38,009 nt of DNA, from the NCBI GenBank assembly GCA_016933785.1, contig JAFGAG010000017.1:1-38009 (forward strand), in the 5' to 3' direction. The notes beneath the pieces were generated by a model, which saw nothing but the letters and a program-made list of their open reading frames with translations, did not search any database and was not told where the DNA came from. The DNA is from Coriobacteriia bacterium (lineage in GTDB: Bacteria; Actinomycetota; Coriobacteriia; Anaerosomatales; Anaerosomataceae). The position numbers were made by a program, and so were the translations under genes. Of the stretch, positions 7,856-13,774 are shown in pieces (positions within the stretch are counted from its first letter, which is position 1; the number at the start of each line of letters is the position of its first letter).

Positions 7856-9214
7856 CTACACCACCAGCTCACGCAGCGCCGCTCGCACCGCCGCCGGCAT
7901 GCGCTCCCGCAGCCGCACCGGATCGCCCATCGCACGCGCAAGGATGCGCGTGGTGAACGGCTGCGCGGTCTCAACGATGTCGATCTCGGGATACAGCGCC
8001 CGGGCGACACCCTCCACCGTGGCCAGCGACTTGATGAGCAACCCGTACCCGCTCGGAATCGCGACGCCATGCTCGCCGAGCAGCTTCAGGAAGCCCAGCC
8101 CGAAGTGCGCGAAGTCCCGCGTCCCATCGGGACGGACATCGCCGTCGAGCAGGGCGCCAAGGCCCCGGCGCACCGGCTCCACATGCTCCGGCGGCACATG
8201 CACGCCGAGTTTCTCCGAGTATCGCAGCGCGCGATCTGGATCGCGGTAGATGAGCGCCGCCATCACCTGTGTGATGTTCATGCGCTCCTCCGGCGTCAGA
8301 TACCCGACGATGCCGAAGTCGAGATACGCGATCGTGTTATCGGGTGTGACGAATATGTTGGCCGGGTGCAGGTCGGCGTGGTAGCGCCCGTAGACGAACA
8401 CCTGCCGCATGAACGCGGTAGCCCCATGGATCGCGAGACCCTTGCAGTCCACACCCGCCTCGCGCGCGATCTCCAGGTCGCTCAACCGCCAACCCGTGAT
8501 GAACTCCATCGTGAGCACCTTGCCGGTGCTCCTCGTCCAGACGATCCGCGGTGCTTGCACCCTGGCGTCATCGCGGAAGTCGAACGCGAAACGGTCCGCG
8601 AAGCGGCCTTCCTGACGAAGATCGAGCTCGCGGTCGACCGTGGATGAGAACTCGTCGACCAGCCCGACCGGATCGAACCGCCGGGCGAGTCGAGTGCCGG
8701 CCATGCGTTCGGCGAGCCTTCGCACGATGGCGACATCCCCGAGTATGGACTCGGCCGCGCCAGGGCGGACGACCTTCACGACCACCTCGGCGCCTGCGGG
8801 GAGCACCTCTCCCCACACAGGTCGGTACGGGCTCGCGAGCGTCGCCCGGTGGACCTGTGCTATCGAAGCGGCGGCAAGGGGCTTGTTGTCGAAAGTCTCG
8901 AAGAGATCCTCCGGCTCGGCCGCGAACTCCGAGCGGATGACGGCGCGGATCGCCTCGGCAGGCAGTGGCGGAACCGCGTCTTGCATGCGCTGCATCTCGG
9001 CGACCAACTCGGCGGAGAACTCGTCCGGGCGCACGGAGATGAGCTGCCCGAGCTTGATGAACGCCGGCCCGAGCCGCTCGAAGGAGCGTCGCAGACCGCG
9101 CGCCCAGGCGGCACGACGTACGTGAGCCGGTGCGAGCCCGAAGCGCGCGGCGGGAAGCTGGCCTACGAGCTGGCCAACGATGACGCCGGTGATGACAACG
9201 CTGCGGGAGGCCAC
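7856..9214 (-). CDS. ABC1/AarF/UbiB-family atypical protein kinase
   Basis: FERLGPAFIKLGQLISVRPDEFSAELVAEMQRMQDAVPP (KxGQ motif), VFVYGRYHADLHPANIFVTPDNTIAYLDFGIVGYL. GTG start at 9214, 8 bp after the upstream stop. Confidence 0.9.
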   Translation of the reverse strand: MASRSVVITGVIVGQLVGQLPAARFGLAPAHVRRAAWARGLRRSFERLGPAFIKLGQLISVRPDEFSAELVAEMQRMQDAVPPLPAEAIRAVIRSEFAAEPEDLFETFDNKPLAAASIAQVHRATLASPYRPVWGEVLPAGAEVVVKVVRPGAAESILGDVAIVRRLAERMAGTRLARRFDPVGLVDEFSSTVDRELDLRQEGRFADRFAFDFRDDARVQAPRIVWTRSTGKVLTMEFITGWRLSDLEIAREAGVDCKGLAIHGATAFMRQVFVYGRYHADLHPANIFVTPDNTIAYLDFGIVGYLTPEERMNITQVMAALIYRDPDRALRYSEKLGVHVPPEHVEPVRRGLGALLDGDVRPDGTRDFAHFGLGFLKLLGEHGVAIPSGYGLLIKSLATVEGVARALYPEIDIVETAQPFTTRILARAMGDPVRLRERMPAAVRAALRELVV

Positions 9215-9222
9215 GGGGCGCC

Positions 9223-9564
9223 CTAACCGCCGACCTTGCGCAGGATCGTCTCCAGGAGCGACTCCATGGTGTCGAGGCGTCCGCGGAGTTCGGCCACCTC
9301 GAAGCGGATCTCGTCGAGCGCGGGATCGGCCGACTCCTCGCTCGCGACCTCCTCGCCACGAGCGCGAGCGGCAAGATCGGCCTTCAGCTTCTCTTTCTCC
9401 TCCTCGACCATCGCCGCCAGACCGTCGACGAACGCGTCGGGGCCTCCGCTCATCCCCTCGGGACCGCCGCTCATCCCCCGCCGGATGGCAGCTTTGATCT
9501 CCTCGTCGGCAGCCTCGTGCGTGAACAGCCATGTGGCGAAGAACCGCATGACATCGTCGGTCAT
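9223..9564 (-). CDS. Small coiled-coil, phasin-like protein paired with ABC1 kinase
   Basis: MTDDVMRFFATWLFTHEAADEEIKAAIRRGMSGGPEGMSGGPDAFVDGLAAMVEEEKEKLKADLAARARGEE...EIRFEVAELRGRLDTMESLLETILRKVGG; charged heptad-like C-terminus; same operon as ABC1 kinase. Confidence 0.65.
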   Translation of the reverse strand: MTDDVMRFFATWLFTHEAADEEIKAAIRRGMSGGPEGMSGGPDAFVDGLAAMVEEEKEKLKADLAARARGEEVASEESADPALDEIRFEVAELRGRLDTMESLLETILRKVGG

Positions 9565-9669: not shown

Positions 9670-12057
9670 TCATCGCTCCGGCGTGCGCCCCAGAAGCCGC
9701 AGCCCGTTTGCGATCACGAGCAGCGCGATCCCGGTGTCAGCGAAGACCGCCATCCACAGCGTCGCCTTACCCACGACCGCGAGTGCGATGAACACGACCT
9801 TCACGGCAATGGACGCAGCCACGTTCTGCCGGATGACACGCATCGTCCGCCTGCCGAGGGCGAGGAAGCGCGGCACGCCCGCGAGGTCGTCACCCATGAG
9901 CGCCACATCGGCGGTCTCGATCGCCGTGTGGCTGCCGGCCGCGCCCATTGCCACGCCGATGTCTGCCGTGGCGAGGGCAGGCGCATCGTTCACGCCATCC
10001 CCCACGAGCAGCACGGAACCGTAGCCCGCCCGCAACTCCTCCACGGCCCCGGTCTTGTCCTGCGGCAGCAGCCTCGACCGTACCTCTGTGATACCGGTCA
10101 TCTCCGCCACCCGGGCCGCGGCCTGCGGACTGTCGCCCGTCAACATCACCACGTGCTCGATGCCGCCCGCACGCAGCCCTTCCACAGCCGAGGCCGCTCT
10201 GGTGCGCACCGCATCGGCCACGCCGATCACGCCCAGTACGCGTGGAGGGACCGTGTCGTGCGCGAGCACGACGAGTGTCGTGAGGCCCTGAGCTTCGAGT
10301 TCGCCGATCGTCGTCTCCGCGCCGCCGGGTCCTGCCCCCTGCTCTGCAGCGCTCCGTGCGCTGACCACCGACACCTCGAGCCCATCCACCACGCCGCTCA
10401 CGCCGCGGCCGGGCTCCTCGCGCACGTCTCTCACTCCTGGAAGCGGACCCCCGACCGCCGCAGCCACCGCGGCGGCCAGCGGATGGTTGGAGTGCGCCTC
10501 GACCGCGGCCGCGAGACGCAGTACGCGGTCGGAGGGTTCATCGCCCAGTGCGACCACTTCGGCCACCACCGGCCGACCCTCCGTGAGCGTCCCCGTCTTG
10601 TCGAACGCCACGACCCGAATGCCCGCCGCCCGCTCGAGGAACGCGCCACCTTTCACGAGGATACCGTCGCGCGTGGCACGGGTGATGCCCGAGACGACCG
10701 CTACCGGCGTCGAGACGACGAGCGCACAGGGGCACGAGATCACGAGCAGCGTGAGGGAGCGATACACCCACTCCCGCCACCCTTCGAAGCCTGAGATGCC
10801 GGTCGCGAACTCGCCGAGCAGCGGACCGCCGACCGCAAGGGCGATCGCCGCGACGACTACGATGGGCGTGTACACGCGACTGAACCGGTCGACGAAACGC
10901 TGCACCGGTGCCCGGGTGGCCTGAGCGGATTCCACGAGCTCCACGATCCGAGCGATGGTCGTGTCAGTCGCCCCGGCGGTTGTGACGATCACGACGAGAC
11001 CCGATGTATTGAGCGTGCCCGCATAGACGAGGTCCCCGGGCCCCCGGTCGGCGGGTAGTGACTCGCCGGTGATGGGAGACTCGTCGAAAGCCGACCGCCC
11101 CTCGGTGATGCGTCCATCGAGCGGCACGCGCTCCCCAGGGCGCACCACCACGGACTCCCCGACGGCGACATCCTCTGGCCCCACCTCGAGTTCGACGCCG
11201 TCCCTGCGAACACGTGCCCGGGCAGGGGCCAGTGACATCAGCTCGCCGATCTCGCGCCTCGTGCGGGCCACGGAGCGTGACTCCAGCATGCCGCCGAGCG
11301 CGAACAGCACGATCACGGTGGCGCCCTCGCCCCACTCGCCAAGCGCAGCCGCACCCGAGACAGCCAGCGTCATGAGCACGTTCATATCGAGCGACCGCGC
11401 CATGAGAGAGACGACAGCACGGCGCCAGACGAGCGAGCCGCCGACGATGATCGCAAGCGCGTGAGCCGCCATCCCGGCGGTCTCGGCACCCGTCCACGAG
11501 AGCAACCATCCCACGATGAGCAGCGCCGCCGAGGCGGCCACGCTGACCTCGGTGCGGTTACGGGTCCACCACGAGACCGGCGGGAGCCCCGTGTCATCGG
11601 CAACAGCCAGCGCCTCGATGCCGTGTCCGGCGCCTACAACGATCGCCACCGCGCGCGCACGAGGGTCGTTCGCACGGTCGTACTCGATCCGAAGCAGGCC
11701 GGTCGCGAAGTTCACGTCGGCCGAGAGCACACCCGGAAGCTGCTGTACGGACTTTGCCACGGTCCGCGCGCAGTCGGGTCAATCAAGCCCTTCGAGGCGG
11801 TACACGGCGTGACCGAACGCATCGGCTTCCTCAAGTGCGCGCCGCTCGATCACGAGGTTCAGTTCTTCGAACGAGACCACCGACGGGTCGAAGGTGACCT
11901 CGAGCTCTCCCGCCTCGCTATCGCAGCGTGCGGTCAGAACACCTTCGAGTCCGCGAACGCCGGCGCAGATCCGCTCGGCGCACGCCACACAGTGCTGCGG
12001 ACCGGGAAGCACCGCGGCCAGGTCGAACCGGTGGGTCTCCGGCGCGGGATCGGCCAT
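9670..12057 (-). CDS. Heavy-metal-transporting P1B-type ATPase with two N-terminal HMA domains; in-frame TGA at 11779-11781 possibly decoded as selenocysteine
   Basis: ORFs 11779..12135(-) and 9670..11760(-) are in the same frame, separated only by TGA plus PDCART before the GTG at 11760. Merged reading: MADPAPETHRFDLAAVLPGPQHCVACAERICAGVRGLEGV...HAVYRLEGLD[UGA]PDCARTVAKSVQQLPGVLSADVNFATGLLRIEYD...; ATPase motifs CPC, DKTGTLTEGRP, GDGVNDAPALATADIGVAMG. ATG at 12057 sits 2 nt after the permease TGA. Confidence 0.8.
11732..11781 (-). promoter_or_regulatory. Candidate bacterial SECIS element (UGA plus downstream hairpin)
   Basis: mRNA after UGA: CCCGACUGCGCGCGGACCGUGGCAAAGUCCGUACAGCAGCUUCCGGG. 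Manual pairing: nt1-4/44-47 (CCCG/CGGG), nt6-9/36-39 (CUGC/GCAG), nt12-17/27-32 (GCGGAC/GUCCGU); apical loop CGUGGCAAA starts 17 nt after UGA with G at loop position 2. Confidence 0.55.
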
Positions 12058-12059
12058 CG

Positions 12060-12857
12060 TCACGCGACGTCCCGCCGCGAGAAGACGACCACCGCCGCGA
12101 TCAGGCTGACAAGCGCGATGCCCCCGTAGAGCCACCAGGCCTCGGAGGCGACCTGCTCGCCGTTGATGAGGAGTCCCGGCTGCCAGTAGGCGATGACGTT
12201 GACGGGGCCGAGCGCCTCAGCGGCCTCCGAGGCGCCAGACAGCAGATCGGCGACCCACAGCGTGCCGAGCAGTCCGGCCGCTATCGCACCCGGCTTGCCG
12301 CCGCCCCGGAAAATGGCCGATAGCAGCATCGCGAATCCGCCCACCGCGAGAACGAACAGTGTGCCGAAGGCGATCAGCATCCCGGTCACGTCCCAGCCGA
12401 GGTTGATGTCGTAGGTCGGCCCGAAGACCTCGAGCGGCACGAAGCTCGCCATGGCGAGCACGACCGCGTACACCACAAGCACGATCACACGCGTCAGCGC
12501 GACTTTCACCCGCGAGACCGGCTGCGAGAGCACGAACTCCATCGTGCCGGCAGCGATCTCACCGGCGAACGCACGCGAGGCGTAGATGATGACCGCCGAA
12601 CTCACGATGAGGATCCACATGATGCCGAGATACTCGGTCTGGAAGTAGCCACCGAGCGATGAGAACGGCACCTCCGAGCCGCCGAACACAGCGAGCAACT
12701 CCGGTGGGAACGTCTCGATGATGTTCGCGTACTCCTCACCGATGGTCGGGTAGAACCACGTCATCATCCAGGCATACGAGACCAAGCCGATCGCGAACCA
12801 GAACATGGAGGTGCGGTGCTGATGCAGTGTGGCCTTGAAAAGTGTCCAGCTCATCAC
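12060..12857 (-). CDS. ABC transporter permease (ABC-2 type)
   Basis: Six-TM-like protein MMSWTLFKATLHQHRTSMFWFAIGLVSYAWMM...AGEIAAGTMEFVLSQPVSRVKVALTRVI; start overlaps stop of the upstream ATP-binding gene. Confidence 0.88.
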   Translation of the reverse strand: MMSWTLFKATLHQHRTSMFWFAIGLVSYAWMMTWFYPTIGEEYANIIETFPPELLAVFGGSEVPFSSLGGYFQTEYLGIMWILIVSSAVIIYASRAFAGEIAAGTMEFVLSQPVSRVKVALTRVIVLVVYAVVLAMASFVPLEVFGPTYDINLGWDVTGMLIAFGTLFVLAVGGFAMLLSAIFRGGGKPGAIAAGLLGTLWVADLLSGASEAAEALGPVNVIAYWQPGLLINGEQVASEAWWLYGGIALVSLIAAVVVFSRRDVA

Positions 12858-13774
12858 TCCTCCCCTCCTTCGGCAGCGACAGGTTCGGCAGTGTCCCGGT
12901 AGTACTCGAGGAAGACGTCCTCGAGACTCGCCTGTTGGATATGCAGATCCAGGACCTGCCGCTCTGCGACACGCTTGATGAGGGCGTCCACCGCGTCACC
13001 CCGAGCGCGGGCGGTCAACGACGTGGCGCTGATGGCTGTCACGTTGTCCACACCGGGCACCTGGGCGAGCAACGCGGGATCGACCGGCTCGGCGAACTCG
13101 ACGCCCACCTGCCGCAGCCGCTTGCCGAGGAGCGCCTTGACGCCCTCCTCGGCTACGAGTTGTCCGCCGCGGATGATACCGACGGTGTCGCACACCCGCT
13201 CGACCTCGGAGAGGACGTGGCTCGAGAGGAAGACCGTGCGGCCCTCGGCCACCCGCTCCTCGATGACCGAGTAGACGGTCTCCTGGTTGAGCGGGTCCAG
13301 CCCGCTCGTCGGTTCGTCGAGAATCAACAGCTCGGGGTCGTGTGCGAGCGCGAGGATGAGCGCGAGCTTCTGCTTGTTGCCCTTGGAGAGTTCGCGGACA
13401 CGTCGCGACGGGTCGAACTCGAACCGCTCCAGCAGCTCATCGGCAAGTCTCCCCTTGCCACCGCGGAAGCCCGCCGCGTACTGCATGTGCCAGCGGCCGG
13501 TCTCCTTCTCGTACAGCCGCACCTCACCGGCCACATAGCCGATATGGTGCCGCAGGTCCGCGCCGTCGAGAGAGACCGCTTCACCGAGCAGAGTCGCACT
13601 GCCAGACGTCGGCTTGAGCATGCCGAGCAGGCAGCGGATCGTCGTCGTCTTCCCGGCCCCGTTCGGTCCCAGGAACCCGTAGACCGCCCCCTGCGGGACG
13701 CTCATGGTGAGATCGGCCACGCCTTTGGTCTTGCCGTAGTACTTGGTCAGCGATCGGGTGCTGATTACATCCAT
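12854..13774 (-). CDS. ABC transporter ATP-binding protein
   Basis: Walker A GPNGAGKTTTIR, signature LSKGNKQKLALILALAHDPELLILDEPTSGLDPL, H-loop LSSHVLSEVERV. Confidence 0.96.
   Translation of the reverse strand: MDVISTRSLTKYYGKTKGVADLTMSVPQGAVYGFLGPNGAGKTTTIRCLLGMLKPTSGSATLLGEAVSLDGADLRHHIGYVAGEVRLYEKETGRWHMQYAAGFRGGKGRLADELLERFEFDPSRRVRELSKGNKQKLALILALAHDPELLILDEPTSGLDPLNQETVYSVIEERVAEGRTVFLSSHVLSEVERVCDTVGIIRGGQLVAEEGVKALLGKRLRQVGVEFAEPVDPALLAQVPGVDNVTAISATSLTARARGDAVDALIKRVAERQVLDLHIQQASLEDVFLEYYRDTAEPVAAEGGEE

Follow-up and report, generated by a model that had tools for sequence, protein, structure and literature searches.

A candidate selenocysteine at a metal-ligand position of a ZntA-type P1B ATPase in Coriobacteriia

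Can a stop codon inside a metal pump gene be part of the pump? The window, by which we mean the whole stretch of 38,009 nucleotides that was analysed, carries on its minus strand the gene of a heavy-metal P1B-type ATPase. The frame of this gene starts with an ATG at 12057 and ends with a stop at 9670. It comprises 795 codons, and codon 93 is its sole internal TGA. ORF calling cuts the gene in two, a 118-aa ORF and a 696-aa ORF that begins with GTG 11760. The original prediction was that the frame runs through the TGA without a frameshift and that the codon is read as selenocysteine (Sec). Our 795-residue translation agrees with the first part; around codon 93 it reads HAVYRLEGLD-U-PDCARTVAKSVQQLPGV. 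Whether the second part is plausible depends on the following features.

9670..12057, minus strand: full P1B-2 ATPase frame, 795 residues with predicted Sec93 (translation, Pfam domains, structure match, homologs)
11827..12039, minus strand: first HMA domain (HMA1), residues 7-77, with CVAC (C23, C26) (Pfam, alignment, model)
11611..11817, minus strand: second HMA domain (HMA2), residues 81-149, with U93-P-D-C96 (Pfam, model)
11779..11781, minus strand: TGA within the frame at codon 93, predicted to encode selenocysteine as first ligand of the UxxC in HMA2 (translation and alignment)
11758..11760, minus strand: GTG, proposed alternative start, inside the loop of a predicted hairpin (ORF list, alignment, reading by eye)

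Conservation of the in-frame TGA

Pfam finds HMA (two stretches, the best at residues 85-128), E1-E2_ATPase and a HAD hydrolase domain in the ATPase. The TGA falls on the first Cys of the second HMA domain (GLD-U-PDC). HMA1 keeps its CVAC, as had been stated, with C23 and C26 confirmed. In an AlphaFold2 model (mean pLDDT 86) HMA2 forms a complete beta-alpha-beta-beta-alpha-beta fold, and residue 93 lies just before the first helix of this domain, which is the usual metal loop. The claim that the TGA occupies a conserved metal-ligand position is supported by the homologs: the alignment column contains Cys or TGA only, and neither unrelated residues nor other stops.

All 25 aligned Coriobacteriia orthologs that have a TGA have it at the identical alignment column, and their genomes were assembled separately. 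The remaining two rows of the alignment (L041 and L080) carry TGC, as does a further syntenic ortholog (L084), and more TGC cases occur elsewhere in the order. Named relatives belong to Coriobacteriia, to Anaerosomatales or to unplaced Actinomycetota MAGs. Across 296 surveyed genomes of the class, strong matches occur in 50, every one of them inside the window's own order, the Anaerosomatales. An internal TGA is present in 35 of these 50, with the column verified for the aligned and the later-fetched genes only. The genus g27 is mixed, with TGA in three genomes and TGC in two; the TGC sequences are more divergent in this region, though, and are perhaps not orthologs in the strict sense.

One could put the TGA down to faulty sequencing, or to a nonsense mutation that a decaying gene has recently acquired. 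Nothing beyond the stop itself speaks for this. Against it, many separately assembled genomes share the TGA, down to about 53% protein identity, and the window gene has no further internal stops. There is also protein-level constraint on either side of the codon: pN/pS is 0.53-0.66 upstream of the TGA versus 0.26-0.45 just downstream, and HMA1 is the part of the ATPase under the weakest constraint. We give error or decay practically no credence, as it is already refuted by the conservation of the TGA. Judging from the aligned genes, the in-frame TGA is neither chance nor sequencing error, because it recurs at one column in independent assemblies. Hence, the statement that it is not a random nonsense mutation holds, on column conservation and on constraint at both sides. 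A scan for other recoded TGA codons in the window returned none that is convincing. Of the three that were flagged, one marks the border of a gene, and the other two seem to lie in frames that do not code for protein.

A predicted hairpin downstream of the UGA

A conserved UGA could still be a real stop. The locus would then produce a 92-aa HMA1 protein and, from GTG 11760, a separate pump without most of HMA2. This split is what standard ORF calling delivers, and the GTG codon is retained in 20 of 22 Sec genes. However, the GTG has no recognizable Shine-Dalgarno at the expected distance (judged by eye), just as originally described, and it is replaced by TTG in L030 and by GTC in L040. The PDCAR codons between the TGA and the GTG are conserved as protein, with C96 invariant, and Cys orthologs of the same neighbourhood are a single, unsplit open frame. 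The earlier argument against independent re-initiation at the GTG is strengthened by the replaced starts and the syntenic Cys orthologs, and we consider a true stop very unlikely. The conservation of the GTG has another explanation, since it sits in the loop of a predicted hairpin.

11747..11767, minus strand: predicted SECIS hairpin (stem A), 6 pairs, 9-nt loop CGUGGCAAA (stem search, Sec/Cys comparison, peak of synonymous conservation)

Two alternative stems occur in the Sec genes. In stem A, the type found in the window gene, nucleotides 12-17 after the UGA pair with nucleotides 27-32. In stem B nucleotides 12-18 pair with 22-28, leaving the loop GUG. One or the other is present in all 22 Coriobacteriia Sec genes examined first. 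With both stems fixed beforehand, stem A was complete in all five Sec genes fetched later, and neither stem exists at any of 13 Cys sites. The new Sec genes differ from the Cys sites with a Fisher p of 1.2e-4, which is not a strict probability as the sequences are related. In one gene stem A is expected by chance in about 3.6% of cases. A pair of genomes with the same group code gives a direct comparison: G101 (Sec, ARTVAKSV) has the stem, whereas the complete stem is missing from G041 (Cys, AQTVAKSV). Stem B contains two pairs that are changed on both sides, which was seen in none of the slid controls. Synonymous conservation in the codon alignment of the Sec genes peaks around the UGA, where the 12-codon window from codon -2 to +9 ranks first of 778.

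These results support a SECIS-type hairpin that accompanies the TGA and not the Cys codon. The hairpin lies directly 3' of the UGA with a G in its apical loop. The apical loop of bacterial SECIS elements is small (PMC1088965), and the 9-nt loop of stem A is larger. Single-sequence folding energy is not below that of synonymous controls (z = 0.0 for the window gene). As a set, Sec genes have lower folding scores than Cys genes (Mann-Whitney p = 4e-4, a value uncorrected for relatedness and obtained with a single codon-usage table for all rows).

Selenocysteine machinery and proposed function

The genome carries selA, selB and two copies of selD. The selA and selB genes lie together on contig C32, where one selD (L018) is also found; the other selD (L017) is on contig C84. 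Each selD copy holds one in-frame TGA, hence SelD in this genome is probably itself a selenoprotein. Between selA and selB there is a 153-aa ORF (L015:3395-3856, minus strand). Searches of this 77%-complete assembly with Rfam, with a same-genus tRNA-Sec as query and, on candidate loci, with ARAGORN found no tRNA-Sec. The top hit of Rfam is a tRNA-Ser(CGA), and a partial tRNA at which the selAB contig ends looks by eye like Leu(UAA) and not like Sec. A tRNA-Leu(CAA) stands at the very end of the window's contig (37922-38007, plus strand). In the same family, 20 of 27 genomes have a tRNA-Sec with anticodon UCA, including both near-complete genomes of the same genus, from which we infer one for this species. 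The sel genes that the original prediction called for are thus present as far as selA, selB and selD are concerned, while selC is absent from the incomplete assembly and found in same-genus genomes.

The type of pump can be read from the following positions.

10726..10734, minus strand: transmembrane CPC motif, residues 442-444 (invariant in the alignment)
10588..10602, minus strand: DKTGT phosphorylation motif, D486 (invariant in the alignment)
9799..9801, minus strand: K753, equivalent to ZntA K693 (alignment to the ZntA structure)
9736..9738, minus strand: D774, equivalent to ZntA D714 (alignment to the ZntA structure)

The protein matches the TIGR01525 profile with 568.8 bits (cut-off 346). 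Among solved structures the closest in sequence is that of the Zn pump ZntA (4umv), and a fold search agrees, with 4umw first. Because it has both ZntA equivalents and the invariant CPC, the protein is by sequence a P1B-2 (ZntA-type Zn/Cd/Pb) pump.

Taken as a whole, it is highly probable that the gene encodes a full-length ZntA-type pump in which UGA-93 is decoded as Sec via SelB, tRNA-Sec and the downstream hairpin, so that the ATPase almost certainly carries Sec in place of one metal-gripping Cys. SelB and tRNA-Sec would insert Sec at residue 93, guided by the hairpin that starts 12 nt downstream. From its position, Sec would take the place of the first Cys in the CxxC of the membrane-adjacent HMA domain (U93-P-D-C96) and act as the first ligand of the HMA2 metal site. 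Ions of the Zn, Cd, Pb or Hg class may then bind to this selenolate/thiolate site, which would serve for regulation or delivery, and afterwards leave through the CPC site, driven by ATP. That the exported ions are of the Zn/Cd/Pb class is suggested by the family features. Sec may, as originally proposed, alter the pKa and the metal or redox behaviour of the site, and its role there might be metal binding, control of redox state or the handling of mercury.

The UGA could also be a selenium-dependent switch. With Sec inserted, the product would be the pump and its selenolate metal site; with termination at the UGA, it would be a free 92-aa HMA1 metal chaperone. A CxxC-bearing HMA1 does precede the UGA in the window gene and in most orthologs of the family, an arrangement that can be likened to E. 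coli copA, where frameshifting yields a one-domain chaperone from the 5' end. Yet several order-level relatives, as well as Firmicutes and paralog Sec pumps, have no HMA1 and still have the UGA, hence the UGA is not kept for an HMA1 product. That HMA1 is the least constrained region does not fit a switch either. A selenium-gated truncated product is therefore improbable, and possible only in members that have HMA1; if it did exist, selenium status would set metal handling in these two-HMA members.

Evolution of the locus and known families

The predicted full-length Sec pump is embedded in the following neighbourhood (all from gene context).

12854..13774, minus strand: ABC transporter ATP-binding protein gene
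12060..12857, minus strand: ABC-2 type permease gene, which stops 2 nt ahead of where the ATPase starts, probably in one operon with it
9223..9564, minus strand: small conserved gene that we label phasin-like (no Pfam match), adjoining the ATPase across the clade
7856..9532, minus strand: ABC1/UbiB-type kinase gene

The listed start of the kinase gene overlaps the phasin-like gene, and the true start is probably downstream of it. Both genes stay beside the ATPase in Sec and Cys orthologs alike, and uvrB is near in many; the upstream ABC-2 transporter genes are kept in part of the clade only. Since Sec and Cys orthologs have the same neighbours, the ATPase gene has the look of a chromosomal locus passed on vertically, rather than of a mobile resistance island.

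Besides the Coriobacteriia pumps, Sec forms are found in a paralog clade, in a clade related to Thermincola and in Natronincolaceae, where Anaerovirgula has Cys instead. A quick protein tree requires at least five changes between Sec and Cys, the direction of which cannot be read from it. The paralog (L042, L043, L049, L050 and L051) is another P1B ATPase of Sec type in the same family, about 45% identical and with the motif GITULDC; its UGA is followed by a separate hairpin of 9 pairs, complete in four of five copies. Among the Natronincolaceae pumps (L106, L112, L122 and L127), three have a TGA and a following hairpin with the loop AGGU, and in the Anaerovirgula Cys sister the hairpin is degraded.

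Most known Sec residues are found in redox active sites. A Sec that a whole order keeps as putative metal ligand in an ion pump would be a clean natural case for selenium as a metal ligand, and the syntenic Sec/Cys orthologs are ready-made comparison pairs. Sec-containing pumps have been predicted earlier, and we know of no experimental follow-up. Such pumps are easily missed, because ordinary gene calling shortens them by about 100 residues.

On the evidence of its profile match and its U93-P-D-C96 motif, the ATPase is a member of an already known family of predicted selenoproteins, COG2217 ZntA / TIGR01525, which has been described since 2008 (example ABB15669.1; PMC2398784, PMC5029168, PMC9312934, PMC13188914). 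One of these papers gives the figures 25 and 32 for the Sec ATPase family, which we take to be organisms and genes (PMC5029168), and a review from 2026 states that the exact roles of such selenoproteins in heavy-metal detoxification need more study (PMC13188914). Coriobacteriia are not mentioned in the main text of two of these papers. Literature searches turned up no paper that joins selenoproteins to heavy-metal-associated domains, to copper-exporting ATPases or to Anaerosomatales, and for Coriobacteriia the single match was off topic. What is new here is the Coriobacteriia clade, the alternative SECIS hairpins, the syntenic Sec/Cys exchange and the second Sec ATPase paralog.

With the known Sec ATPases the window protein shares the P1B profile family (TIGR01525 above cut-off), the UxxC and the exchange of Sec and Cys at one column, ABB15669.1 itself being outside our alignment. 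Unlike them, its clade is in Coriobacteriia, usually has an HMA1 with CxxC ahead of the Sec domain and shows hairpin types of its own. The P1B-2 zinc pump ZntA (PDB 4umv/4umw) has the same domain order, the CPC motif and the K693 and D714 counterparts, but has Cys where the window protein has its predicted Sec. The UxxU metal-binding (seleno)protein NF041115 and the Mer-type transport selenoproteins also place Sec in a small HMA-like metal-binding fold. HMA2 has a weak profile similarity to NF041115 (38 bits, cut-off 95) and is therefore not a member, and in contrast to the window ATPase neither NF041115 nor the Mer-type selenoproteins are P-type pumps.
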